NCBI GenBank assembly: GCA_017437925.1
Contig: JAFRWQ010000026.1
Span: 1 to 11,143 of the forward strand
DNA: 11,143 nucleotides
Source of the DNA: Bacillota bacterium
Lineage (GTDB): Bacteria; Bacillota_A; Clostridia; Peptostreptococcales; Anaerovoracaceae
Reading direction: 5' to 3'
The notes under the pieces: generated by a model
What the model saw: the letters and a program-made list of their open reading frames with translations, nothing else
What the model was told of the DNA's origin: nothing
Database searches by the model: none
Translations under genes and position numbers: made by a program
Shown: positions 714-11,143 of the stretch, piece by piece
Position numbering within the stretch: position 1 is the first letter of the stretch
Layout: each line of letters begins with the position of its first letter

Positions 714-1763
714 TCAGCGGCCGGCTTCCAGCTTTGCCAGGTCCTTTTCAAGATCGAGGCTGGGATATACGTCAAGATCGAGCCCCGCGAAGCGGCCTTC
801 CATAGCCTTGCGGTAGGCAGCTTCCGCGACCATGGCCCCGTTGTCGGTGCAGAGCACGGGGGAAGGTATCATGAGGCTCGCTCCCCTCTTTCTGCAGGCC
901 TTCGCCATGCGGTGCCTGAGGGAGGAATTGCAGGCGACCCCTCCCGCAAGAGCGAGGCTCCTGTATCCGGTAAGATCCAAAGCAGCCATGGCCTTGTCCA
1001 CCAGCACGTCTATAACAGCCTGCTGGAAAGACGCGGCGACGTCCGCCCTGTTGATCTCACGGCCCCTCTGCTCTTCGGAATGCAGATAATTTATGACCCC
1101 GGTCTTGGTGCCGCTGAAGGAAAAGTCCAGGCTGTCCTTTTCAAGGTAGACCCGCTTGAACTCGTGGGCGCGGGGGTCGCCCTCCTTTGCCAGGGCGTCC
1201 ACCTTGGGCCCGCCCGGGTAACCCAGTCCCAGGACCCTCGCCACCTTGTCGTAGGCTTCGCCCACGGCGTCGTCCCTGGTCGCGCCCAGTATCCTGAACT
1301 CGTTGTACCCCCTGACCTCGGCCAGATGGGTGTGGCCTCCCGAGACGACCAGCGCCAGGAAGGGAGGCTCGAGCTCCGGATGCTCCAACAGGTTTGCCAG
1401 TATGTGGGCTTGGATGTGGTGCACTCCGACCAGGGGCTTGCCCGAAGCAAGGGCCAGGCCCTTCGCAAAGGCTGTGCCCATGAGCAGGGCTCCCGCAAGG
1501 CCGGGTCCCGCGGTGACTCCTATCTCGTCGATGTCGTCATGAACGACACCCGCCTCGTCCAGGGCCTGCCTGAAGACGTAGGGGATGTTGCTTAAGTGAT
1601 GCCTCGAAGCGATCTCGGGGACCACCCCCCCGTAGACCGTGTGTATCTCGATCTGGGACGAGATCACGTTGGAGAGGAGGTCTTTCCCGTCCGCAAGCAC
1701 CGCTATGGCGGTCTCGTCGCAGCTCGATTCTATGCCCAATGTGAGATGTCTGCCGTCTTTCAT
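714..1763 (-). CDS. tsaD: tRNA N6-adenosine threonylcarbamoyltransferase TsaD
   Basis: TsaD (YgjD/Kae1 family, ASKHA fold) transfers the threonylcarbamoyl group from threonylcarbamoyl-AMP to A37 of tRNAs that read ANN codons, working with TsaB and TsaE. The 349-residue length is usual. The N-terminus LGIESSCDETA is the family signature. The metal-binding HxxxH pair is in HHIQAH (H116, H120). VVSGGHTHL (139-147), LDFSFSGTKTGV, AGGVACNSSLR and the nucleotide-binding CTDNGAM near the C-terminus are all present, so it looks intact. The ATG at 1763 lies 4 nt after the rimI stop, which points to translational coupling, because the Shine-Dalgarno is weak. It is the last gene of the leftward operon and is followed by 85 bp with nothing recognisable and then the shared terminator. 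Confidence 0.97.
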   Translation of the reverse strand: MKDGRHLTLGIESSCDETAIAVLADGKDLLSNVISSQIEIHTVYGGVVPEIASRHHLSNIPYVFRQALDEAGVVHDDIDEIGVTAGPGLAGALLMGTAFAKGLALASGKPLVGVHHIQAHILANLLEHPELEPPFLALVVSGGHTHLAEVRGYNEFRILGATRDDAVGEAYDKVARVLGLGYPGGPKVDALAKEGDPRAHEFKRVYLEKDSLDFSFSGTKTGVINYLHSEEQRGREINRADVAASFQQAVIDVLVDKAMAALDLTGYRSLALAGGVACNSSLRHRMAKACRKRGASLMIPSPVLCTDNGAMVAEAAYRKAMEGRFAGLDLDVYPSLDLEKDLAKLEAGR

Positions 1764-1767
1764 CTTT

Positions 1768-2253
1768 TCAGGACCTGGTCCTAAGCCTTTCCCTTCTCCA
1801 CATTATGACCGCGTCTTCCCTGCCCTGGTAGTAACCCTTGCGTATGCCCTCGCTCTCAAAACCGAGGCCTTCGTACAGGGCCCGGGCGGCCTTGTTGGAC
1901 TCCCTGACCTCCAGGGTAGTGTCCATTATGCCCAGGGCTTCGCAGTCGGCCAGCATGGCCTTGAGCAGCAGTGTCGCTATGCCCCGCCTTCTGTATTCCG
2001 GATGCACCGCCACGTTGCCCAACTGGCACTCGTAGGGGGGAAGGAGCCAGCAGCTGACGCAGGCGACTATTTTGCCTTCGGTCTCGGCAAGGTAAAAGCG
2101 GGAGTTTTTGCTCTCCGTGATGCTCCTCGCTATGCTCTCCCAGCTCCAGGGCACGGGAAAGCAGAGCTTTTCCAGCTCCGCGAGGGCGTCTATGTCGCTC
2201 TTTCTTCCGTCGGATATCCTTATGCTTATATTTTCGCCTTGGTATTCGGCCAT
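1768..2253 (-). CDS. rimI: ribosomal-protein-alanine N-acetyltransferase RimI (GNAT)
   Basis: This 161-residue protein is a GNAT acetyltransferase of the RimI family, which acetylates the N-terminal alanine of ribosomal protein S18 in E. coli. The acetyl-CoA loop is RRRGIA (88-93), after the beta-4 strand NVAVHPEYR. The residues matching the E. coli catalytic pair are E115 in LEVRESN and Y127 in ALYEGLGF. RKGYYQGREDAVIMW near the end is typical of the family. rimI between tsaB and tsaD is a very common arrangement in Firmicutes. Why it travels with t6A genes is not settled, and the real substrate in this organism cannot be read from sequence. The start at 2253 has only a weak GAG-type ribosome-binding site, 36 bp after the tsaB stop. 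Confidence 0.95.
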   Translation of the reverse strand: MAEYQGENISIRISDGRKSDIDALAELEKLCFPVPWSWESIARSITESKNSRFYLAETEGKIVACVSCWLLPPYECQLGNVAVHPEYRRRGIATLLLKAMLADCEALGIMDTTLEVRESNKAARALYEGLGFESEGIRKGYYQGREDAVIMWRRERLRTRS

Positions 2254-2289
2254 GCTTTTCTCGGGTCTGCCGCCCTTCGTTGCCTTTCT

Positions 2290-3033
2290 TTATTTCCCTT
2301 CGGGGGACTTTTCCTTAAGCTTTCTTTCCGCCTCCGCAAGGCGCAGGTACTCGGGGGAGGCGCTGAAGCAGTCGTCAAGAAGCCCGTCCTTAAACATTTC
2401 GGCGGCGAGCCTCGCCGTCCATGAGGCCTTCTGATACCTCAGTTCTTCGGGCGCGGCCTCCGCGGGAAGGCCGCAGTTTTCAAGCTTTTCCTTAAAGGGC
2501 TCTATGCCGTCCCCGAAAAAGATCAGCCTGTCGTAATGCGAAGAGACTTCTCTCAGCTTTTCTATGTACTCGTCGGGGCCGTAGGCGGCGTCGCTTACGA
2601 CGGCCCTGCGGCTGAGGGGCTCGTAGGCTCCCGCGTAGACCTGGCTTCTTCTCGCGTCGAAGACCGGGCAGAAGAGGAGCTTTTCGCCGTTTTTTTTGGT
2701 CAGCAGTTCTTCGCTTCCGCTGAAGGCGAAGGACATGAGGGTGGGAACACATATCACCGGCTTATCCCAGACCTGGGCCAGGGCTTTTGCCGTCGCCATG
2801 CCTATCCTTATGCCGGTAAAGGAGCCGGGTCCCCTGCTCACCGCGACCGCGTCAAGGCTTTCGGGGCTTACTCCCCTCTCATTCAGCAGTTCAGCGATCA
2901 TGGGGGCAATGCGCTGCAGGTGGGAGTACTCGCTGCCGTCGCTCTTTTCGCTTATACAGCCGTCCTTGTAAAGGGCGGCCGAGGCCAGGCGGCCCGTTGT
3001 CTCTATGGCAAGTATCACCATTTTACGGAGCAT
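2290..3033 (-). CDS. tsaB: t6A biosynthesis scaffold protein TsaB
   Basis: TsaB (YeaZ) is a catalytically inactive paralogue of TsaD that dimerises with it and helps recruit TsaE. The protein has 247 residues. VILAIETTGRLASAAL is the N-terminal ASKHA strand pair, and SRGPGSFTGIRIGMATAKAL (66-85) is the diagnostic motif. The C-terminal half is variable, as usual, and ends in SPEYLRLAE, a common TsaB ending. The start is uncertain by four residues: ATG at 3033 has AAAGGA only 1 nt away, while ATG at 3021 begins MVILAIET, closer to the family. Both overlap the tsaE 3' end (18 or 7 bp), so the two genes are translationally linked. rimI follows after 36 bp. Confidence 0.95.
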   Translation of the reverse strand: MLRKMVILAIETTGRLASAALYKDGCISEKSDGSEYSHLQRIAPMIAELLNERGVSPESLDAVAVSRGPGSFTGIRIGMATAKALAQVWDKPVICVPTLMSFAFSGSEELLTKKNGEKLLFCPVFDARRSQVYAGAYEPLSRRAVVSDAAYGPDEYIEKLREVSSHYDRLIFFGDGIEPFKEKLENCGLPAEAAPEELRYQKASWTARLAAEMFKDGLLDDCFSASPEYLRLAEAERKLKEKSPEGK

Positions 3034-3437
3034 ATCCTTTCGTTTTCACCCTCCCCGTAGGAAAGGTCTATGAATATCGCGTCTTCGGGGAGCAGGTCTT
3101 CTATAAGGTCAGCCCACTCTATGACGCAGACGCCCTCCTTTTTAAGGTATTCGAAGAAGCCGGCTTCGAAGAGCTCGTCCTCGTCGCTGACGCGGTAGAC
3201 GTCAAAGTGGTAAAGGGGGAGGCGTCCGCCTTCGTGCTCCATCACTATGGTGAAGGTGGGGCTTGCGACCCTTGTGCTCACGCCCAGGCCCTTCGCGATT
3301 GCCCGGGTCAGGGCGGTCTTTCCCACGCCGAGATCGCCCCTCAAAGCGACCACGTCGCCGGGCTTTAAACGCTCCGCCAGCTTTTCTCCCAAAGCCGCGG
3401 TCTCTTCTTCATTTTTCAGGATATAGGTCTCGGTCAT
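3015..3437 (-). CDS. tsaE: tRNA threonylcarbamoyladenosine biosynthesis ATPase TsaE
   Basis: TsaE (YjeE) is the small P-loop ATPase that resets the TsaB-TsaD complex between rounds of t6A synthesis. Counting from the ATG at 3437 gives 140 residues. The Walker A loop is GDLGVGKT (34-41). The switch region ASPTFTIV follows, then the conserved HFDVYR (77-82) and IEWAD (106-110). A longer frame opens at 3497, but its extra 20 residues (starting MRRRPVPRP) are unlike the family and would overlap the upstream transporter gene by 41 bp, so I use 3437. No strong Shine-Dalgarno is visible there: the 25 bases before it are A/T-rich. The transporter gene stops 19 bp upstream, so the gene is probably co-transcribed with it. 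tsaB overlaps its 3' end. Confidence 0.95.
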   Translation of the reverse strand: MTETYILKNEEETAALGEKLAERLKPGDVVALRGDLGVGKTALTRAIAKGLGVSTRVASPTFTIVMEHEGGRLPLYHFDVYRVSDEDELFEAGFFEYLKKEGVCVIEWADLIEDLLPEDAIFIDLSYGEGENERICSVKW

Positions 3438-3456
3438 GTATATTATTATTTGTTTC

Positions 3457-4677
3457 TCAGTTTTCGGCAGGGGCCGCGGAACGGGCCTGCGCCTCATTTT
3501 TAAGCATCCTGATGGAAAGAAGCATCAGCAGCAGGGCGGCGGCCGAGGTCACGAGGCTGAAGGTATATATAAAGCGGAGGCCGAAGCGGTCCATAAGGAC
3601 TCCTCCTATGGCGTTGCCCAGGACCCCTCCTATTCCTCCCGTAAAGCAGAGCGAAGCCAGGGACTGGGCCCTCACCTTCTGATCGGCCTTGACTATGTCA
3701 TTGGCGTAGAGCACTCCGGCGAAACCGTAGATGCCGTAGCAGAAGAAGCCGGAGAACATGATGGCGTATATGCCGGCGAGGGACCTGACATAGAGGTAGG
3801 CGGCAGACCTTAAAGCATAGGCCGAAAAGGATACGCAGATCAGGGTCCCCGAGCTTAAGTAGCGGAGCAGAAAGCCGGAGATGAACATTATCGGAAGCTC
3901 CATGCCGGCCTGTATCAGTATCGCTATTCCCATCTCCCGGGTCCCGCCCCCCACCGACTCTATCATGCGGTTGAGGAAGGTGCCCAAAGGCGCCTGCCCT
4001 ATGCCCATGACTATGAGCGAGAGGAGAAAGAGGACCAGAGCTTTGTTGCTTTTGAGCATCTCGCCGTAGCTGGTCGCTCCCTTGCCGCTCCCCCGCCTGA
4101 CAGGGTCCACCGGGGGCATAAGGAGCATGGAGATCACGGTCAGGACCTCGATGGCCATGAAGAGGCTCAGCAGGATCTCAGGGTCGTATTTGGCGATGAG
4201 CCTGCCGAAGACCAGAGCTCCTCCGGCCCAGCCCATGGAGCCTATGCCTCTGGGCCAGCCGTAGTTGACCGGAAGCCCGGCGTTGACGTACTGGACCATC
4301 ATGGCGTTGAGCAGGCCGTTGTTGGACTTCTGCGGAGCGTCTGCCATCATGAACATGACGGCGACCAGGGCGACGGAGGGCCTTGAAAAGTGCATCAGGG
4401 CCACGAAGACGAAGGAAAAGGCGCAGAGGGCCACGGTGATCTTCCTTAAAGGTATCTCGGGGTGCCTGTCGCAGAAGTTGGACACGAAGAGCTGCAGGAA
4501 TATGGCGGCGACCGAGGTCATGGAGACCGCCAGTCCCACCATGCCGTCGCTCATGCCGCGGCTCGAAAGAAAGACCGCGGTGAAGCCCTGAAGGCAGCAG
4601 GCAGAGGCCCAGTAAAGGAACTGGGCGACTGCGTAATGTATCTCAATGTTAAGCGCTCTGCGTCTTTCGGGGTCCAT
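3457..4677 (-). CDS. MFS transporter, MFS_1-like family (paralogue A)
   Basis: This 406-residue integral membrane protein has about 12 hydrophobic segments and the look of the LacY-like/MFS_1-like group of the major facilitator superfamily. NYGWPRGIGSMG (138-149) is a family signature at the TM4-TM5 region. A basic central loop (about 190-212) divides the halves, and QKVRAQSL lies before TM11. The substrate cannot be inferred. The ATG at 4677 is preferred over the upstream frame opening at 4746, because GGGAGGAG lies 5 nt upstream and the paralogue starts with the same MDPERRRA. The product is about half identical by eye to the gene at 4795-5982. A promoter overlapping an inverted repeat lies at 4716-4746. 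The 3' end is 19 bp from tsaE, so this gene may head the t6A transcript. Confidence 0.9.
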   Translation of the reverse strand: MDPERRRALNIEIHYAVAQFLYWASACCLQGFTAVFLSSRGMSDGMVGLAVSMTSVAAIFLQLFVSNFCDRHPEIPLRKITVALCAFSFVFVALMHFSRPSVALVAVMFMMADAPQKSNNGLLNAMMVQYVNAGLPVNYGWPRGIGSMGWAGGALVFGRLIAKYDPEILLSLFMAIEVLTVISMLLMPPVDPVRRGSGKGATSYGEMLKSNKALVLFLLSLIVMGIGQAPLGTFLNRMIESVGGGTREMGIAILIQAGMELPIMFISGFLLRYLSSGTLICVSFSAYALRSAAYLYVRSLAGIYAIMFSGFFCYGIYGFAGVLYANDIVKADQKVRAQSLASLCFTGGIGGVLGNAIGGVLMDRFGLRFIYTFSLVTSAAALLLMLLSIRMLKNEAQARSAAPAEN

Positions 4678-4702
4678 TGTCTCCTCCCGGCCGAAAGCCG
4701 TC
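4655..4702 (-). repeat. 48-bp direct repeat over the start of transporter A (copy 1)
   Basis: This segment spans the first 23 coding bases of paralogue A, the RBS and 25 bp of leader. It matches 5960-6007 with only two mismatches (at 4678 and 4694). It includes a small CGGC/GCCG hairpin just before the GGGAGGAG ribosome-binding site. The adjoining coding and upstream sequence is much less similar. Confidence 0.85.
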
Positions 4703-4715
4703 ATCTTTGACCAAT

Positions 4716-4735
4716 CCGTATTATCACAAATACGG
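4716..4735. promoter_or_regulatory. inverted repeat, candidate operator upstream of transporter A
   Basis: CCGTATT (4716-4722) and AATACGG (4729-4735) are perfect 7-bp inverted arms around ATCACA. On the minus strand they cover the predicted -10 and part of the spacer of the promoter at 4718-4746, which is where a repressor would sit. The matching region before paralogue B shares only part of the core (ATCAtAAAT-like) and lacks the arms. I do not recognise the regulator. There is no T-run, so it is not a terminator for paralogue B. Confidence 0.45.
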
Positions 4736-4746
4736 CAAAGAGGCAA
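4718..4746 (-). promoter_or_regulatory. putative promoter for transporter A and the t6A genes
   Basis: Read on the minus strand, TTGCCT (4746-4741) and TAATAC (4723-4718) are separated by 17 bp in the 117-bp gap between the two transporter genes. The leader would be about 35 nt to the ATG at 4677. The elements match the consensus only moderately. Read-through from paralogue B is also possible, because no terminator is visible between the two. Confidence 0.4.
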
Positions 4747-4794
4747 GGATTATTTGACCCGGGAGCGGACTTGGCGCTCGCGTGTTTCCGCGTC

Positions 4795-5982
4795 CTAGCG
4801 GGCTTTTACGGAAAGTGACATGAAGAGCAGCGAGAGGGCTGACAGCGCGACGCTGAAGATCAGCAGGGCCCGCAGTCCTAAGCGGTCGAGTATTACGCCT
4901 CCGACCGCGTTTCCCAATACTCCTCCTATCCCTCCGCTGAAAGCGAGGGAGATGAGGGACTGGGCCCTGACCTTCTGATCCGGCTCGGACACGATCTCGT
5001 TGGCGTACATGACTCCGGCGAAGCCGTAGAAGCCGAAGCAGGAGAAGCCGAGCATGGCAGCGGCGTAAAGCATGCCCGTGTTTCCGCTCAACAGGAAGAG
5101 CAGCGATTTGAGCGCGTAGCAGGCGAAGGAAAAACGGACCAGCTGATGCGGCCTGAAACGCCTGAGGAAAATACCGGACATGAACATGGCGGGCAGCTCC
5201 ATGCCCGACTGTATCATTATGACGACCCCCTGTTCTTTGGCGCTCCCTCCCAAAGACTCGATAAGGCGGTTGAGGAAGGTCCACACCGGAGCCTGACCGA
5301 TGCCCAGCACCACGACCGATATGAGGAAGAGGACGAGAGCCCTGTTGCTTTTGAGCATCTCGCTGTAGCTGCTCGCGCGCACAGACTCCCTTTTTACGTA
5401 AGAGACCGCGCCGACGGGAGGCATAAGGAACATGCAGAGCATGGCAACGGCGGCCGTTCCCATGAATATCGGAAGGAGTATGCCGGAACCGTTCTTCGCG
5501 ATAAGAACGCCCAGCAGAAGAGAAGCCAGCGCGGCGCCCATAGACCCTACCCCCCTGGGCCAGCCGTAGTTCACCGGCAGACCCGTATTAATATACTGGA
5601 TCAGAAGCGCGTTGAGCAGTCCGCTGTCGGATCTCTCGGGAGCGGCGGCAAGCACGAAAAGCGCCGCCGTGAGGACAACGCCGGGCCTTGCCGTATGGAG
5701 GACGGCGGCGAATGCGAAGGCTGCGGCGTACATGAGCACGGTGATCCTCTTCAGGGGTATCCCGGGATGCTTATCGCAGAAATCCGACACCCAAAGCTGC
5801 AGCAGTATGGCCCCTATGGAGGTCAGGGCGACCGTCAGGCCTATCTCGCTGTCATTGAGCCCTCTGTCCGCGAGAAAAAGCGCCGTATAGCTCTCAAGGC
5901 AGCATACGGAGACAAAATAAAAAAGCTGGGTGAAGGCGTAATGTACTTCTATGTTGAAAGCTCTGCGTCTTTCGGGGTCCAT
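4795..5982 (-). CDS. MFS transporter, MFS_1-like family (paralogue B)
   Basis: This 395-residue membrane protein has about 12 hydrophobic segments and is a tandem paralogue of the gene at 3457-4677. Both begin MDPERRRA and share NYGWPRG(V/I)GSMG at the same position (138-149), a central loop ending SY(S/G)EMLKSN, the GMELP motif, and QKVRAQSL before TM11. It belongs to the MFS_1-like/LacY-like group; the substrate is unknown. The start at 5982 has GGGAGGAG 5 nt upstream, identical in setting to paralogue A. It lacks the charged C-terminal tail of paralogue A and ends SVKAR. It is transcribed away from the hydrogenase operon across a 257-bp divergent region. A sugar or small organic solute porter is plausible, but this is only a family-level inference. 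Confidence 0.9.
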   Translation of the reverse strand: MDPERRRAFNIEVHYAFTQLFYFVSVCCLESYTALFLADRGLNDSEIGLTVALTSIGAILLQLWVSDFCDKHPGIPLKRITVLMYAAAFAFAAVLHTARPGVVLTAALFVLAAAPERSDSGLLNALLIQYINTGLPVNYGWPRGVGSMGAALASLLLGVLIAKNGSGILLPIFMGTAAVAMLCMFLMPPVGAVSYVKRESVRASSYSEMLKSNRALVLFLISVVVLGIGQAPVWTFLNRLIESLGGSAKEQGVVIMIQSGMELPAMFMSGIFLRRFRPHQLVRFSFACYALKSLLFLLSGNTGMLYAAAMLGFSCFGFYGFAGVMYANEIVSEPDQKVRAQSLISLAFSGGIGGVLGNAVGGVILDRLGLRALLIFSVALSALSLLFMSLSVKAR

Positions 5983-6239: not shown

Positions 6240-6737
6240 ATGGAAAGACTCAACGGAGAATCCATCAAGCGCATCCAGGAGATCGTCGCCGCGCATGCCA
6301 ATGAGCCCGGTCCCGTCATCGTGATGCTTCACGAAGTTCAGGACGAGTTGGGCTACATTCCCTATGAAGCGATGGAAGCGATCTCAAAGGCAACCGGAAC
6401 CAGCGTTGCGGATGTATTTGGTGTGGTCAATTTCTATGCTCAGTTCACTACCGAGCCCAAAGGCAAGCACGTCATAAACGTCTGCCTCGGCACAGCCTGC
6501 TATGTTAAGGGATCTTCCAAACTGGCAGAGATCGCGGAAAAAGTGACCGGAGCGAAGCTCAACGGAACCAGCCCCGACGGCCTGTTTTCCCTTGACGCTA
6601 CGAGATGCCTGGGAGCATGCGGACTCGCCCCTGTTGTGGTGCTCGACGGCCGAGTGATCGGCAGCTGCACTCCCCAGAAGGTCGAGAAAGAGATCCAGGC
6701 TATAATTGATGAGGAAAAAGCAAACAAGGTCTCATAA
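6240..6737 (+). CDS. hydC: NAD-linked [FeFe]-hydrogenase subunit HydC (NuoE-like, thioredoxin-fold [2Fe-2S])
   Basis: This 165-residue protein belongs to the 24-kDa NuoE/HydC/HndA family. It carries a [2Fe-2S] cluster next to the flavin subunit in complexes that exchange electrons with NAD(P)H. The N-terminal helical bundle (about 1-75) includes HEVQDELGYIPYEAM and ADVFGVVNFYAQF. The thioredoxin-like domain binds the cluster with C82 and C87 (CLGTAC) and C123 and C127 (CLGAC). GSCTPQKVE near the end is also typical. The start is clear: AAGGAGG sits 6 nt upstream of the ATG. The stop overlaps the next start (TAATG). Because hydB follows at the far end of the same gene string, this is more likely a HydABC-type hydrogenase subunit than part of respiratory complex I or formate dehydrogenase, but that cannot be excluded without hydA. 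Confidence 0.92.
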   Translation: MERLNGESIKRIQEIVAAHANEPGPVIVMLHEVQDELGYIPYEAMEAISKATGTSVADVFGVVNFYAQFTTEPKGKHVINVCLGTACYVKGSSKLAEIAEKVTGAKLNGTSPDGLFSLDATRCLGACGLAPVVVLDGRVIGSCTPQKVEKEIQAIIDEEKANKVS

Positions 6738-7099
6738 TGAAGCTTAAAGATATTGTCTGTTGTCTGGATGCCGAAGAGCTGGTGCTCCCCTGCGAGGAAG
6801 CTCTGGAAAAAGATCTGGAGTTCGCCTTCGCGACGGACCTTATGAGCGACGCTCTGGCAATGATAAGCGTATCCCCCGAATCCACACTGCTGATCTCGGG
6901 ACTGGCTAACGCCCAGACCATACGCACGGCGGAGATGCTGGATATCGACACAATAGTCTTTGTAAGAGGCAAGCAGCTGAGCGACGAGATACTGGAGATG
7001 GGAAGAGAGAGCGGCATGAGCCTTTTCTCAACAAAACATACCATGTATCAGGCCTGCGGCCGCCTGTATGCAAAAGGACTGAAGGGAATCAATGAGTAA
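6737..7099 (+). CDS. DRTGG-domain protein 1, hydrogenase-operon associated
   Basis: This 120-residue soluble protein consists of one divergent DRTGG-like domain, a small alpha/beta fold found in phosphotransacetylase N-terminal regions and in CBS-containing pyrophosphatases. The region ATDLMSDALAMISVSPESTL followed by LLISGL (35-57) and a second half with IDTIVFVRGKQLSDEIL match the domain layout. Stand-alone copies are recurrent next to HydABC-type hydrogenases in Thermotoga and Clostridia, where they probably act as a ligand- or protein-binding sensor module; no activity is established. It has a Cys pair at 8-9 and further cysteines at 19 and about 106, not arranged as a known cluster motif. 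Its ATG overlaps the hydC stop by 1 nt, and its 3' end overlaps the ATPase gene by 8 nt. Confidence 0.78.
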   Translation: MKLKDIVCCLDAEELVLPCEEALEKDLEFAFATDLMSDALAMISVSPESTLLISGLANAQTIRTAEMLDIDTIVFVRGKQLSDEILEMGRESGMSLFSTKHTMYQACGRLYAKGLKGINE

Positions 7100-7520
7100 C
7101 AGTATTCTGCACAAGGAATATACCGTCATACGATTTGATTATGCGGGCGCGGGCAAAGCCAGCTCCGATATCAAAAAGACTTTGTCTACCATCGGTATTC
7201 CTTCTGCGGTACTGAGAAAGATTTCAGTAGCGAGTTATGAATCGGAGATCAACATGATCATCCACGCCTACGGCGGGGTGATCACCATGGACGTATTCGA
7301 CAACGGCGAGATCCGCCTCGTCTTCCGCGACGGGGGACCCGGTATCCCCGATATCGAAAAGGCCATGACTCCGGGCTTTTCCACGGCCAGCGAAGACGCC
7401 AGAAACATGGGCTTCGGAGCGGGCATGGGACTGCCCAATATCAAAAGAGTCTCCGACTCATTTGACTTACAGACTTCAGAGAAAGGAACTACTCTTACTT
7501 TAGGGTTTGTGGTCTCTTAA
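7092..7520 (+). CDS. GHKL-type ATP-binding protein 1 (RsbW/anti-sigma kinase-like)
   Basis: This 142-residue protein is a stand-alone HATPase domain like those of RsbW and SpoIIAB, which are serine kinases that bind anti-anti-sigma factors. The N box is EINMIIHAY (52-60; N54, H58). The G1 box is DGGPGIPD (80-87, DxGxG intact). The G2 region is GFGAGMGL (107-114), and GTTL (132-135) is G3. There is no histidine-phosphorylation domain and no membrane segment. The neighbourhood contains no sigma factor, STAS-domain protein or PP2C phosphatase, so its target is unknown; the DRTGG protein before it or the HydS-like protein after it are candidates. It overlaps the upstream gene by 8 nt and the downstream start by 1 nt (TAATG). 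Confidence 0.85.
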   Translation: MSNSILHKEYTVIRFDYAGAGKASSDIKKTLSTIGIPSAVLRKISVASYESEINMIIHAYGGVITMDVFDNGEIRLVFRDGGPGIPDIEKAMTPGFSTASEDARNMGFGAGMGLPNIKRVSDSFDLQTSEKGTTLTLGFVVS

Positions 7521-8707
7521 TGAAACGTAAGACTGTCGTAAATTACACACTGGAACGCTGTGTCCGCTGCCTGAGGTGCGTACAGAAATGTCCCACCTCG
7601 GCGCTTACCATGCAGGAAAACCGGATCGTCATCAACGAATCCAAGTGCATCAACTGCGGACGCTGCATGCAGGCCTGCCATTCCAAGGGACTGCTGGCCA
7701 GAGGCAGTTCTCTCGACGAACTGAAGAACTACGACTACACGGTCTGCCTCATCCCCAGCGCTATGGTCATGCAGTGCGGCAGCCAAAAGGAAGCCGAAAG
7801 CCTCTTCTACGCCATAAAGGAACTGGGTTTCGACGAGGTGGTGGACATCACGGGCACCGAAGGCCAGCTGATGGAACTGACCAGAAAGCTCACCGAAAGC
7901 AGCCCCAGCAAGCCCGTCATAGCGTCCAACTGCCCCGTGATAAACAGGCTCGTTCAGGAGAACTACCCCATGCTCCTGGATCACCTGCTCCCGCTGGATT
8001 ACCCCAGCGAGATAGCGGCCAAGCAGGCCCGCAAGGACTATAAGGACAAAGGGAAAGTCGGCATATTCTACTGCGCCGAATGCGAAGCCAAGCTCATGCT
8101 CGCCAAATACCCCTACGGGAACCCCGAGTACGAAGTGGATCACGCCCTGGCGTCGGTGGACATACTGCCCCTGATCAGCGAAAAGCTGGATGAAGGCACC
8201 CTTCCCGCAGTGTTCTGCAGAGAAGGCCTTCAGGCGACGAGCCCCACGCTCATGCCCATGTCCCCGGATCATCTGGTAGCCGACGGTTTCGATAAGATCA
8301 GTGAGATACTGGACATGACCGAATTCGGGATCTTTGACTCCTTCACCCTGCTGCACCTCTTCCCCTGCTTCAACGGCTGCGTGGGAGGGCACCTGCTCTG
8401 GGGCAACGGCTACATAGCCCGTCACAACATAGGAGCCCTGATCTCGGAGAAGAGCAAGGATCCGGCGGATTATCCGGTAGAGGACTTCTTCACCGACGAG
8501 TTCACGCTCCAGGATGACGATACTCTCAGCTTCATTGAGAAGATGGCCTTTTTCAACAGCATCAACGAACAGCTGGAGCATCTGCCCGGCTACGACTGCA
8601 GCGCCTGCGGCATGCAGACCTGCAGGATAATGGCCGAGGAGATAGTCAAAGGCAATAAAAAATTGGACGACTGTATAATTCTTCACAGTATGCAAGAAAG
8701 AGATTAA
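7520..8707 (+). CDS. HydS-like divergent [FeFe]-hydrogenase H-domain protein, putative H2/redox sensor
   Basis: This 395-residue protein has three parts. Residues 14-53 form a 2[4Fe-4S] ferredoxin domain (C14-C17-C20-C24 and C43-C46-C49-C53). Residues about 72-300 form a reduced H-cluster domain. The canonical TSCCP becomes ASNCP (C138), MPCxxKxxE becomes FYCAECEAK (C185), and the last motif becomes FPCFNGC (C283, C287). All four expected H-cluster cysteines are thus kept, but the proton-relay Cys is Asn137, the conserved Lys is Cys188, and the Met before the third motif is Phe281. Residues 360-385 form a C-terminal [4Fe-4S] motif CxxCx4Cx16C. There is no PAS domain. This layout fits the group C/D HydS proteins, thought to be sensors, not H2-producing enzymes. 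Embedding among ATPase, DRTGG and PHP genes supports signalling. Whether it binds H-cluster is unproven. Confidence 0.85.
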   Translation: MKRKTVVNYTLERCVRCLRCVQKCPTSALTMQENRIVINESKCINCGRCMQACHSKGLLARGSSLDELKNYDYTVCLIPSAMVMQCGSQKEAESLFYAIKELGFDEVVDITGTEGQLMELTRKLTESSPSKPVIASNCPVINRLVQENYPMLLDHLLPLDYPSEIAAKQARKDYKDKGKVGIFYCAECEAKLMLAKYPYGNPEYEVDHALASVDILPLISEKLDEGTLPAVFCREGLQATSPTLMPMSPDHLVADGFDKISEILDMTEFGIFDSFTLLHLFPCFNGCVGGHLLWGNGYIARHNIGALISEKSKDPADYPVEDFFTDEFTLQDDDTLSFIEKMAFFNSINEQLEHLPGYDCSACGMQTCRIMAEEIVKGNKKLDDCIILHSMQERD

Positions 8708-8708
8708 A

Positions 8709-9041
8709 ATGACTGTCCGTCAATTGATAGAGGAAACCGGTTGGAACTGTCTTGCCGGAAGCGCTCAGCTGGATAAAGAGATCATCGATGCCTACTGCGG
8801 CGACCTTCTCAGCTGGGTGATGGGCAACGGCGATCCCGACCAGGCCTGGATAACCGTCCAGGTGCACATGAACGTTATAGCGGTAGCGGTGCTCAGGGAA
8901 TTCTCCTGCGTCATAATCGCGGAGAACGCCAATCTCCCCGAGGACGTCATCGCCAAAGCCGAAGAGGAGGGAATGCCCATTCTTGAAAGCGGCATGCCGG
9001 TGTATGCCACCGCTAAGAAGCTTGTCGAACTGGGCATCTGA
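8709..9041 (+). CDS. DRTGG-domain protein 2, hydrogenase-operon associated
   Basis: This 110-residue protein is a more canonical stand-alone DRTGG domain than the one at 6737-7099. AYCGDLLSWVMGNGDPDQAW followed by ITVQVHMNVIAVAVL (28-62) is the family core, and the second half has VIIAENANLPEDVI and ILESGMPVYATAKKL. Genes of this type recur beside HydABC hydrogenases together with PHP and HATPase genes. The molecular role is unknown; a ligand-sensing or partner-binding role is inferred from DRTGG domains in phosphotransacetylase and CBS-pyrophosphatases. It starts 1 nt after the HydS-like stop, and its own stop overlaps the PHP start (TGATG), so it is almost surely co-translated with both. 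Confidence 0.85.
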   Translation: MTVRQLIEETGWNCLAGSAQLDKEIIDAYCGDLLSWVMGNGDPDQAWITVQVHMNVIAVAVLREFSCVIIAENANLPEDVIAKAEEEGMPILESGMPVYATAKKLVELGI

Positions 9042-9742
9042 TGTTTTACGACTTTCACATCCACAGCTGTCTGTCACCCTGCGCCGAAGACGAGATGACG
9101 CCCAATAATATCTGCAACATGGCTCTCATCAAGGGTCTGGATATTATCGCGGTAACGGATCACAATTCCACCCGTCAGCTCAGGTCGCTGAGCAGGGCGG
9201 CGGCCGAGACCGGAATAAAACTGCTCTACGGCGCCGAGCTCGAGAGCAGCGAGGAAGTCCACGTTCTGGGGATATTCCCGAAGCTTGAGATGGCGGAAGC
9301 CCTGCAGCCGTGGATAGACTCCCATATGCCGGGCATACCCAACAGGCCGGACTTCTTCGGAAACCAGCTCCTGCTGGATGAGGAGGACCGCGAGATCGGC
9401 AAAGAGGACAGGCTTCTCATCGTGTCTTTGGACGCGAGCCTTTCGGAGTGCGTGGACGCCATCCACTCCTTCGGGGGGAGAGCCATCCTGGCCCACGTGC
9501 TCGACAGGGCGAACTCGGTAACGCAGCAGCTCGGATTCATCCCCATGGACCTTCCCTACGACGGCCTGGAGATCAAATCCCCCGACCAGATCCAGAGGAT
9601 AATCAAGATGCATCCCTGGATAAAGATGGGGTCCACCCACTGGTTCATCGATTCCGATGCGCACAGGCTGGTGGACATATCCGAGCCGGAAAATATCATC
9701 ACTCATAACGAGGTAAACGAATTGTGGGGTGATATTCAATGA
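9041..9742 (+). CDS. PHP-domain metal-dependent phosphoesterase
   Basis: This 233-residue protein has the polymerase-and-histidinol-phosphatase (PHP) fold, a metal-dependent phosphoesterase barrel. The metal-binding motifs appear in order: H6-I-H8 at the N-terminus, D40-H41-N42, E66 in GAELES, H74 in VHVLGIF, H152 in ILAHV and D206-A-H208 near the end. The set looks complete, so catalytic activity is likely. The family includes histidinol phosphatase and nucleotide or phosphoester hydrolases; the substrate here is unknown. As a possible phosphatase in the same operon as two GHKL ATPases, it could oppose their action, but this is inference. It overlaps the upstream stop by 1 nt and the downstream start by 4 nt (ATGA). 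Confidence 0.88.
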   Translation: MFYDFHIHSCLSPCAEDEMTPNNICNMALIKGLDIIAVTDHNSTRQLRSLSRAAAETGIKLLYGAELESSEEVHVLGIFPKLEMAEALQPWIDSHMPGIPNRPDFFGNQLLLDEEDREIGKEDRLLIVSLDASLSECVDAIHSFGGRAILAHVLDRANSVTQQLGFIPMDLPYDGLEIKSPDQIQRIIKMHPWIKMGSTHWFIDSDAHRLVDISEPENIITHNEVNELWGDIQ

Positions 9743-10293
9743 TGCAGGATCTTGCCATGCAGACGCTGGAGATACTGATGAACAGCATCGGCGCCAAGGC
9801 CGATACGGTGATACTCAGGATCAGGGACAGCGAGCATGACAACAGGATCGATATAGAGGTTGAAGACGACGGCTCGGGAATGAGCCCCGAAATGGTCCGG
9901 AAAGTGACTGATCCCTTCACCACCAGCCGCAAGACCCGGAAGGTCGGTCTGGGGGTAGCCTTCATGAAGGGACTCACCGAACAGTGCGGCGGAAGCTTCG
10001 ATATCCAAAGCGCTCTGGGAGTCGGGACCACGGTCAGAGCCTCGGTGCAGAGGGATCACATCGACACTCCGCCGATGGGAGATCTGGGCGAAATGATGAT
10101 GTATTGCGTTCAGGCGGATGAGAATATCGATTTTGAGTTTTATTACACCACCGACAAGGGTAATTTTAAGTTTTTATCCAGGCAGGTCAAAGAGGAGCTG
10201 GACGGAGTAAGCCTGCAGGAACCGGAGATACTGCTCTGGATAAAGGATTACATAAATGAAGGCGTCAATAATGCTAAGGAGGGCATAGAATGA
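9739..10293 (+). CDS. GHKL-type ATP-binding protein 2 with uncharacterised C-terminal region
   Basis: This 184-residue protein starts with a HATPase domain (about 1-105). The N box is ILMNSIGAKA (N15), with the DxGxG box EDDGSGM (42-48), a short lid with TTSRKTRKVGLGVAFM (61-76) and GVGTTV (94-99). Unlike the first ATPase of this operon, its middle and lid resemble histidine kinases or MutL-like ATPases, yet no phospho-acceptor His domain is present. Residues about 106-184 form an added region (with EFYYTTDKGNFKFLSRQVKE) that I do not recognise. It may bind the DRTGG, PHP or HydS-like partner. The ATG at 9739 overlaps the PHP stop by 4 nt, and the 3' end overlaps the next gene by 4 nt. A second ATG directly follows the first. 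Confidence 0.85.
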   Translation: MMQDLAMQTLEILMNSIGAKADTVILRIRDSEHDNRIDIEVEDDGSGMSPEMVRKVTDPFTTSRKTRKVGLGVAFMKGLTEQCGGSFDIQSALGVGTTVRASVQRDHIDTPPMGDLGEMMMYCVQADENIDFEFYYTTDKGNFKFLSRQVKEELDGVSLQEPEILLWIKDYINEGVNNAKEGIE

Positions 10294-10664
10294 AGAGTTT
10301 GGAAGATCTTAAAAAGATGCGCGAGCAGGCCTTGAAGAAGGTCGAGATGCGCGAAGGCGGCAAGGACTACAGAGTGGTAGTCGGCATGGCCACCTGCGGC
10401 ATCGCGGCGGGCGCAAGACCGGTTCTGAACAAACTGGTGGAGGAGACCGCCGAAAAGAACTACAACTGCGTAGTCACCCAGACCGGATGCATAGGAATGT
10501 GCGTATACGAACCCATCGTGGAAGTCTACGGCAAGGACGGTTCCCACACCACCTACGTGCACGTGGATCCCGAAAAGGCCGTCAAGATCCTGGAAGAGCA
10601 TGTCGGCAAGGGCAATGTTATCGAAGAGTACACAGTTGACTCTGTAAAGGCACGGGAGGTCTGA
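10290..10664 (+). CDS. thioredoxin-like [2Fe-2S] ferredoxin, hydrogenase-operon associated
   Basis: This 124-residue protein is a thioredoxin-fold [2Fe-2S] ferredoxin related to the NuoE C-terminal domain and to the N-terminal domain of HydB. A charged helix (1-22) precedes VVVGMATCGIAAGARPVL (C36), and the second half has TQTGCIGMCVYEPIVEVYG (C67, C71). Its cysteine pattern is C36-C60-C67-C71. The second cysteine of the usual first pair is missing, so C60 or a non-Cys ligand must complete the cluster, if one is bound. Similar short proteins lie just before hydB in HydABC operons (Thermotoga TM1420 is of this type), where they may pass electrons to or from the HydB flavin unit. It starts in an ATGA overlap with the ATPase gene and ends 4 nt before hydB. 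Confidence 0.88.
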   Translation: MKSLEDLKKMREQALKKVEMREGGKDYRVVVGMATCGIAAGARPVLNKLVEETAEKNYNCVVTQTGCIGMCVYEPIVEVYGKDGSHTTYVHVDPEKAVKILEEHVGKGNVIEEYTVDSVKAREV

Positions 10665-10668
10665 TTCC

Positions 10669-11143
10669 ATGATTAGAACCAACGTATTATGCTGCGCGGG
10701 AACCGGATGCACTTCCAGCAGGTCCGCGGAAATATACGACAATTTCGTCAAGTACATCGAGCAGTACGGCCTGAAGGACGAGATCAACGTGGTCAAGACC
10801 GGCTGCTTCGGTCTCTGCCAGAAGGGACCCATCGTCGCGATCTACCCCGACAAGATCTTCTACTGCCAGGTCAAGCCCGAGGATGTTGAGAGGATAGTAT
10901 CCGAGCATCTGTGGAAGGGCCGTGTCGTCAAGGAGCTGGAGCTCAGCGACGAAGACCTCAAGACCGGCGAAAAGATCCTCGACATCGACAAGATCAAGTT
11001 CTATGAGAAGCAGCAGAGGATCGCTCTCAGGAACTGCGGCAAGATCAACCCCGAGGACATCGACGAGTACATCGCCATGGACGGCTACCAGGCCCTGGGC
11101 AAGGTCCTCACCTCCATGACTCCCCAGGAAGTCATCGACACCA
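10669..11143 (+). CDS. hydB: NAD-linked [FeFe]-hydrogenase flavin subunit HydB (NuoF-like), 5' part
   Basis: The frame from ATG 10669 is open to the window edge, giving 158 residues of a protein that usually has about 600. It starts with a thioredoxin-like [2Fe-2S] domain: C9 and C14 (CAGTGC) and C46 and C50 (CFGLC), followed by VAIYPDKIFYCQVKPEDVE. Next comes the linker leading into the NuoF FMN domain, with FYEKQQRIALRNCGKI, DEYIAMDGYQALGKVL and MTPQEVI, the classic entry to the flavin domain. In HydABC complexes this subunit binds FMN and NAD(H) and is the likely site of electron bifurcation between NADH and ferredoxin. GGGAGG at 10654-10659 lies 9 nt before the start. hydA should follow outside the window. 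Confidence 0.93.
   Translation, partial: MIRTNVLCCAGTGCTSSRSAEIYDNFVKYIEQYGLKDEINVVKTGCFGLCQKGPIVAIYPDKIFYCQVKPEDVERIVSEHLWKGRVVKELELSDEDLKTGEKILDIDKIKFYEKQQRIALRNCGKINPEDIDEYIAMDGYQALGKVLTSMTPQEVIDT

Follow-up and report, generated by a model that had tools for sequence, protein, structure and literature searches.

The stretch of DNA analysed here (the window; 11,143 nucleotides of contig JAFRWQ010000026.1 from a Bacillota bacterium) encodes a HydS-like protein that contains the H-domain of [FeFe]-hydrogenases. Within the sensory [FeFe]-hydrogenases, this protein is an offshoot of group D (M2e, TamHydS-like). The favoured reading, to which a probability of about 0.5 is assigned, is that it represents a divergent branch of group D without a PAS domain, most members of which hold only the [4Fe-4S]H cubane of the H-cluster and act as a redox sensor or relay. 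The four cluster cysteines are invariant in this family, though a comparison of profile match lists found none of the maturases HydE, HydF and HydG in 42 of 50 genomes that carry it, and this combination speaks for the reading.

The gene is an intact open reading frame (ORF) with an ATG start, and its product has 395 amino acids (Table 1). Among the Pfam matches of the protein, Fe_hyd_lg_C covers residues 76 to 290 (E 1.2e-13), Fer4 is located at the N-terminus and PF04060 at residues 355 to 386, and there is no PAS domain. The structure model has a predicted local distance difference test (pLDDT) score of 90.9 and superposes on [FeFe]-hydrogenases, with at least one fifth of the matching rows spanning only model residues 1 to 332 and the C-terminal fold barely covered. 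A homologue search returned 290 matches, of which the best 120, including the window protein, were listed; 114 of these, again with the window protein, were aligned, and six were left out for length. All eight cysteines of the two N-terminal cluster motifs are invariant across 49 aligned rows, and the four cysteine positions of the C-terminal motif (360, 363, 368 and 385) each hold Cys in 113 of 114 rows.

In the H-domain, Cys138, Cys188, Cys283 and Cys287 are each invariant (114/114). The first-pass annotation, made from the window alone, had also counted four cluster cysteines; three of them stand, while its fourth, Cys185, gives way to Cys188 as the true ligand, since the second motif had been read three residues out of register. 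The register was derived from three alignments with different references and one common query alignment. The ECEAK stretch pairs with PCIAKK of a solved [FeFe]-hydrogenase (9rkm, 30jk/8zqd) in a profile comparison with PDB sequences, and with PCTAKK of HydA and SECLSN of group D-like proteins in hhalign. As the three agree, Cys188 corresponds to C355 and Lys191 to K358, and Ala186 occupies the M353 place. The proposal that Cys188 substitutes for K358 thus falls, as does the idea that it adds a ligand or redox switch, because it is an ordinary cluster ligand. Judging from the alignments, the position that has truly changed in this loop is M353, replaced by Ala186, and Cys185 is an additional cysteine three residues ahead of the ligand that is not conserved (Cys in 40 and Leu in 64 of 114 sequences).

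Other parts of the earlier description were upheld: the C299 and M497 places are taken by Asn137 and Phe281, respectively, and the final GGG is missing. The C299 place is occupied by Phe in 95 sequences, Met in 7, Thr in 3, Val, Gln and Leu in 2 each, and Asn, Ile and one other in 1 each; the nearest relatives show Asn, Thr, Met, Phe, Ile, Val, Gln or His. How often the two proposed substitutions occur had been posed as a question: Asn at the C299 place is found in one of 114 sequences, the window protein itself, and in the 92% identical locus L005, while the K358 place holds Lys in 98 of 114. Since the C299 place is mostly Phe in the family and variable among the nearest relatives, the case for an effect specific to Asn137 is weak. 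The annotated class, a HydS-like sensory rather than catalytic protein, is in line with architecture, tree and operon, but of its two arguments the Asn effect is weak and the Cys replacement was misaligned. In published sensory enzymes the C299 place is Ala in approximately 43%, Cys in 17%, Pro in approximately 10% and Ser in approximately 10% (PMC10055695; here and below, literature is cited from parts of each paper).

The remaining pocket positions are also altered. The M353 place holds Cys in 106, Ser in 4, Ala in 2 and Val in 2 sequences, and the M497 place Phe in 67 and Tyr in 45. In group D the proton route runs via E252 and E289 of TamHydS (PMC10407848). Located through a ten-residue numbering offset rather than a direct alignment with TamHydS, the E252 place is Pro242 in the window (Pro in 97, Glu in 1 of 114), the E289 place is His279 (Tyr in 42, Ile in 19, His in 10, Glu in 6), and the D265 place is Asp in 108. 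On these residues, neither known proton route is kept in the family. Carriers that have maturases (L094, L098, L110) and carriers that lack them (L102, L109, L112), three of each, show similar pockets.

Scanning species genomes turned up 422 relatives, and the analysis kept the 80 best loci. By record name, most of these belong to Erysipelotrichaceae, Solobacterium or kin (Anaerorhabdus, Dielma, Traorella, Holdemania), the other names reading Bacillota or Firmicutes only, Oscillospiraceae or Clostridiales. Via 50 of these loci, 50 genomes were searched for maturases with cut-offs of E ≤ 1e-50 for HydG (TIGR03955), 1e-60 for HydF (TIGR03918) and 1e-50 for HydE (TIGR03956). HydG was found in 2 of these genomes, HydF in 8 and HydE in 7, and none of the three in G005, the bin with the closest relative. 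With no maturase detected in 42 of the 50 carriers, this bin included, it is doubtful whether a working H-cluster is formed. When 14 control genomes were searched, HydF and HydE each matched Thermotoga maritima alone, above cut-off, and HydG matched T. maritima and Bacteroides ihuae, one of them above cut-off.

A wider sample of the order comprised 148 genomes, for which 90% completeness was requested and actual values are not given. The family occurs in 57 of them and group A HydA in 97 (95 above cut-off), including all 57 family carriers. HydG was found in 13 genomes, HydF in 23 (with at most 11 candidates scored per genome) and HydE in 22. None of the three was detected in 45 of the 57 carriers or in 76 of the 97 HydA genomes. 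Of the 13 HydG matches, three contain stop codons within the frame; the one in G117 has six. HydE and HydF without HydG were seen in G041, G150, G011, G021, G061, G062, G072, G144 and G173, and in G011 the two genes adjoin the operon (L145).

With a HydG protein as query, six HydG-less carriers (G001 to G005 and G106) gave no match. Of three genomes with group D-like genes, G257 and G318 gave none and G308 a 19-bit match; the control G053 was matched in full. In a HydG protein search, the species-named entries among the best 120 of 7994 matches are Thomasclavelia/[Clostridium] saccharogumia and one Roseburia hominis bin; these names fit an absence of HydG elsewhere without proving it.

The isolate genome of Anaerorhabdus furcosa was searched by tblastn over 2,353,368 of 2,406,951 bases (97.8%). 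In this portion neither HydE nor HydG as query produced a match with an E-value under 1.2, and the HydF matches were all partial and reached at most 50 bits, a level that other GTPases would be expected to give. The same queries match known clusters, including their own source locus, at 314 bits or more, and the HydG query gives only a 64-bit match in L145, which lacks HydG. A. furcosa holds HydA as well as group B and group C H-domain proteins with intact-looking motifs. As strain ATCC 25662 is a named isolate, the question is directly testable.

Deletion of hydG in C. thermocellum removed all [FeFe]-hydrogenase activity, and HydE, HydF and HydG are each described as required for it (PMC4355364). 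If hydG is needed for activity, members in maturase-less genomes should, by the known route, hold only the cubane. A precedent is Nar1, a hydrogenase-like protein without [2Fe]H (PMC12621388). In most members, the H-domain would accordingly contain an ordinary [4Fe-4S]H cubane and no [2Fe] subcluster. Electrons from reduced ferredoxin or the neighbouring HydABC complex would enter via the two N-terminal clusters, and the reduced state would alter both the H-domain and the cluster domain at the C-terminus. This change could be read by the proteins encoded next to it (HATPase, DRTGG and PHP), which would adjust the complex or its genes. Invariant ligands combined with an altered pocket fit a redox sensor or relay, and signalling through the HATPase, DRTGG and PHP proteins would likewise fit.

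Several points weigh against a cubane-only protein. In hydrogenases, the lysine at the K358 place contacts the [2Fe] site, and it is largely kept in the family as Lys191. The HydA of the same operon retains most catalytic motifs. A. furcosa keeping group B and C H-domain proteins would be odd if the H-cluster were never made, and 8 of the 57 order-sample carriers have HydG. Many of the searched genomes are metagenome bins or draft assemblies whose completeness is not shown, the proton-route residues were placed by numbering offset, and the signalling partner and the electron flow are proposed from sequence. In addition, an M2 hydrogenase of Solobacterium moorei is active after artificial maturation (PMC6984386), and activation by a synthetic cofactor is expected if an unknown route makes the H-cluster.

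Part of this evidence would suit a genuine H2 sensor of group D that has the complete H-cluster, its [2Fe] subcluster being supplied by HydEFG of the window's genome or by an unknown route. Lys191, the near-canonical motifs of the same-operon HydA and the uptake of the synthetic cofactor by the S. moorei enzyme (PMC6984386) all favour such a sensor, and HydE and HydF without HydG, as found in 4 of the 57 carriers, would suit an altered pathway. The missing maturases in most carriers and in the searched part of A. furcosa, the prevalence of Phe at the C299 place and the loss of both proton routes nevertheless make it rather unlikely; TamHydS itself was characterised after artificial maturation with a synthetic cofactor (PMC8163306, PMC6984386). 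An accessory electron carrier or docking subunit of a HydABC-type complex, linking ferredoxin and HydBC without any sensing, would agree with the presence of HydA in every order-sample carrier and with N-terminal clusters and a C-terminal Fe-S domain matching RnfB-type electron carriers, but it is improbable, as two HATPase genes, DRTGG and PHP genes around the HydS-like gene suggest regulation and the structure titles of the solved complexes from T. maritima, T. kivui and A. woodii call them HydABC, with no HydS-like protein.

The HydS-like gene lies in an operon whose gene order is HydC-like, DRTGG-like, HATPase, HydS-like, DRTGG, PHP, HATPase, [2Fe-2S], HydB, HydA. The window ends within HydB, and HydA follows next in relatives such as L005. 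By ORF reading, the same order recurs in the Erysipelotrichales loci covered, namely those of A. furcosa (L142) and Dielma fastidiosa (L146), L145 and L155, and three group D-like loci (L152 to L154) have a slightly altered one. HydA was found in 55 of the 80 loci by a motif pattern using C[CS]P, since these HydA proteins carry TSCSPGW; 25 loci remained unmatched, at least some because the contig ends first (L001). In TSCSPGW, the first HydA motif (e.g., L036 13928-15685), the place of ligand C300 is taken by Ser, a feature shared with A. woodii HydA1 (7q4v). Upstream of the operon, translations of the reverse strand resemble a tsaD, rimI, tsaB and tsaE cluster (714-3497) and two similar tandem ORFs of the major facilitator superfamily transporter type (3457-5982).

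Table 1. Coordinates of the HydS-like gene, its motifs and neighbours in the window, and of the H-domain genes in the A. furcosa loci.
Feature	Position	Strand	Basis
HydC/NuoE-like [2Fe-2S] subunit, first gene of the operon	6240..6737	+	PF01257, E 7.5e-44
DRTGG-like protein, distant paralogue of 8709-9041	6737..7099	+	BLASTP E 3e-5 to 8709-9041; no Pfam match
HATPase, anti-sigma-F-like	7092..7520	+	PF13581; TIGR01925 below cut-off
HydS-like H-domain protein, 395 aa	7520..8707	+	intact ORF, Pfam, homologues, structure model
Two N-terminal [4Fe-4S] motifs, Cys14/17/20/24 and Cys43/46/49/53	7559..7678	+	Fer4 matches
L1: Asn137 (C299 place), ligand Cys138 (C300)	7928..7933	+	alignments
L2: extra Cys185, Ala186 (M353 place), ligand Cys188 (C355), Lys191 (K358)	8072..8092	+	alignments
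L3: Phe281 (M497 place), ligands Cys283 (C499) and Cys287 (C503)	8360..8380	+	alignments
C-terminal Cx2Cx4Cx16C cluster motif, Cys360/363/368/385	8597..8674	+	PF04060
DRTGG/HPr-kinase-N-like protein	8709..9041	+	PF02603 just above, PF07085 just below cut-off
PHP-domain phosphoesterase-like protein	9041..9742	+	PF02811
Second HATPase	9739..10293	+	PF02518
Small [2Fe-2S] thioredoxin-like ferredoxin	10290..10664	+	PF01257 just below cut-off; fdxn_Clost E 1e-7, below cut-off
HydB N-terminus, cut by the window end	10669..11143	+	PF01257; resembles full-length L069 HydB by reading
A. furcosa group A, B and C H-domain genes	L149 4529-6049, 6311-7981; L142 4894-6654		

In a maximum-likelihood tree of 49 proteins, rooted for drawing only, a single clade with a support of 100/100 unites the 26 family rows with three group D-like proteins, separate from the group A, B and C rows. 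These three proteins (L119, L120, L121) were called group D-like from sequence and length, and it is with them, not with TamHydS, that the tree placed the family. A frameshift divides the family gene of L106, whose genome (G106) includes a 2.93 Mb contig; this may be a pseudogene or an assembly error. The G005 bin holds two copies of the operon gene, 69% (L001) and 92% (L005) identical to the window, and may be mixed. Selenocysteine was considered for several distant members and rejected, the in-frame TGA being the terminal stop on the reading frames.

The evidence leans slightly towards the Erysipelotrichales keeping H-domain proteins, the family and perhaps the adjacent HydA, under strong selection without HydEFG, either as a cubane-only class of sensors and complexes or with an undiscovered route to the H-cluster. 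A large family with invariant cluster cysteines and mostly no detected maturases questions both the HydEFG requirement and the view of group C and D proteins as H2 sensors. It also bears on surveys that equate hydrogenase genes with the capacity of gut bacteria to produce H2 (PMC12578642). Although encoded beside hydrogenase genes of a gut bacterium, the HydS-like protein may sense the redox state of the cell rather than hydrogen. The protein appears to be a variant of known group D; in titles and abstract openings, with few subscription papers among them, no literature was recognised on the Phe-299 clade, its operon, Erysipelotrichaceae hydrogenases or bacterial H-domain genes without HydEFG.

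Only one group D enzyme, TamHydS of Thermoanaerobacter mathranii, is described as characterised, and a sensing role has been proposed for it (PMC8163306, PMC13104023). A 2026 study reports that its C-terminal cluster is not reduced by H2 (PMC13104023). The window protein shares with TamHydS two N-terminal [4Fe-4S] motifs, an H-domain with four cysteines, the C-terminal Cx2Cx4Cx16C motif without a PAS domain, and a position adjoining a bifurcating group A (HydABC) hydrogenase with a HATPase neighbour. It departs from group D in lacking Ser or Thr at the M353 place, the usual Ala at the C299 place and the E252/E289 route. TamHydS has Ala, Ser and Leu at the C299, M353 and M497 places, whereas the window has Asn, Ala and Phe and the family mostly Phe, mostly Cys and Phe or Tyr; most examined family carriers, moreover, show no maturases. 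The three group D-like proteins, from other Bacillota, have a similar operon by reading but differ in Gln or His at C299, Ser at M353, Asn at K358 and a Glu kept at the E289 place. Prototypical group A enzymes have C299, M353 and M497, where the window has Asn137, Ala186 and Phe281. TmHydS of group C resembles the family in its altered C299, M353 and M497 places (PMC10055695) and its C-terminal cluster domain (PMC13104023), but group C proteins carry the PAS domain that the window protein lacks, and the group C-like proteins fall into a separate clade. Nar1 (CIAO3/IOP1), compared by description only, is a eukaryotic Fe-S assembly protein; its likeness is functional, in that it is hydrogenase-like and carries [4Fe-4S] sites while lacking a diiron site (PMC12621388).
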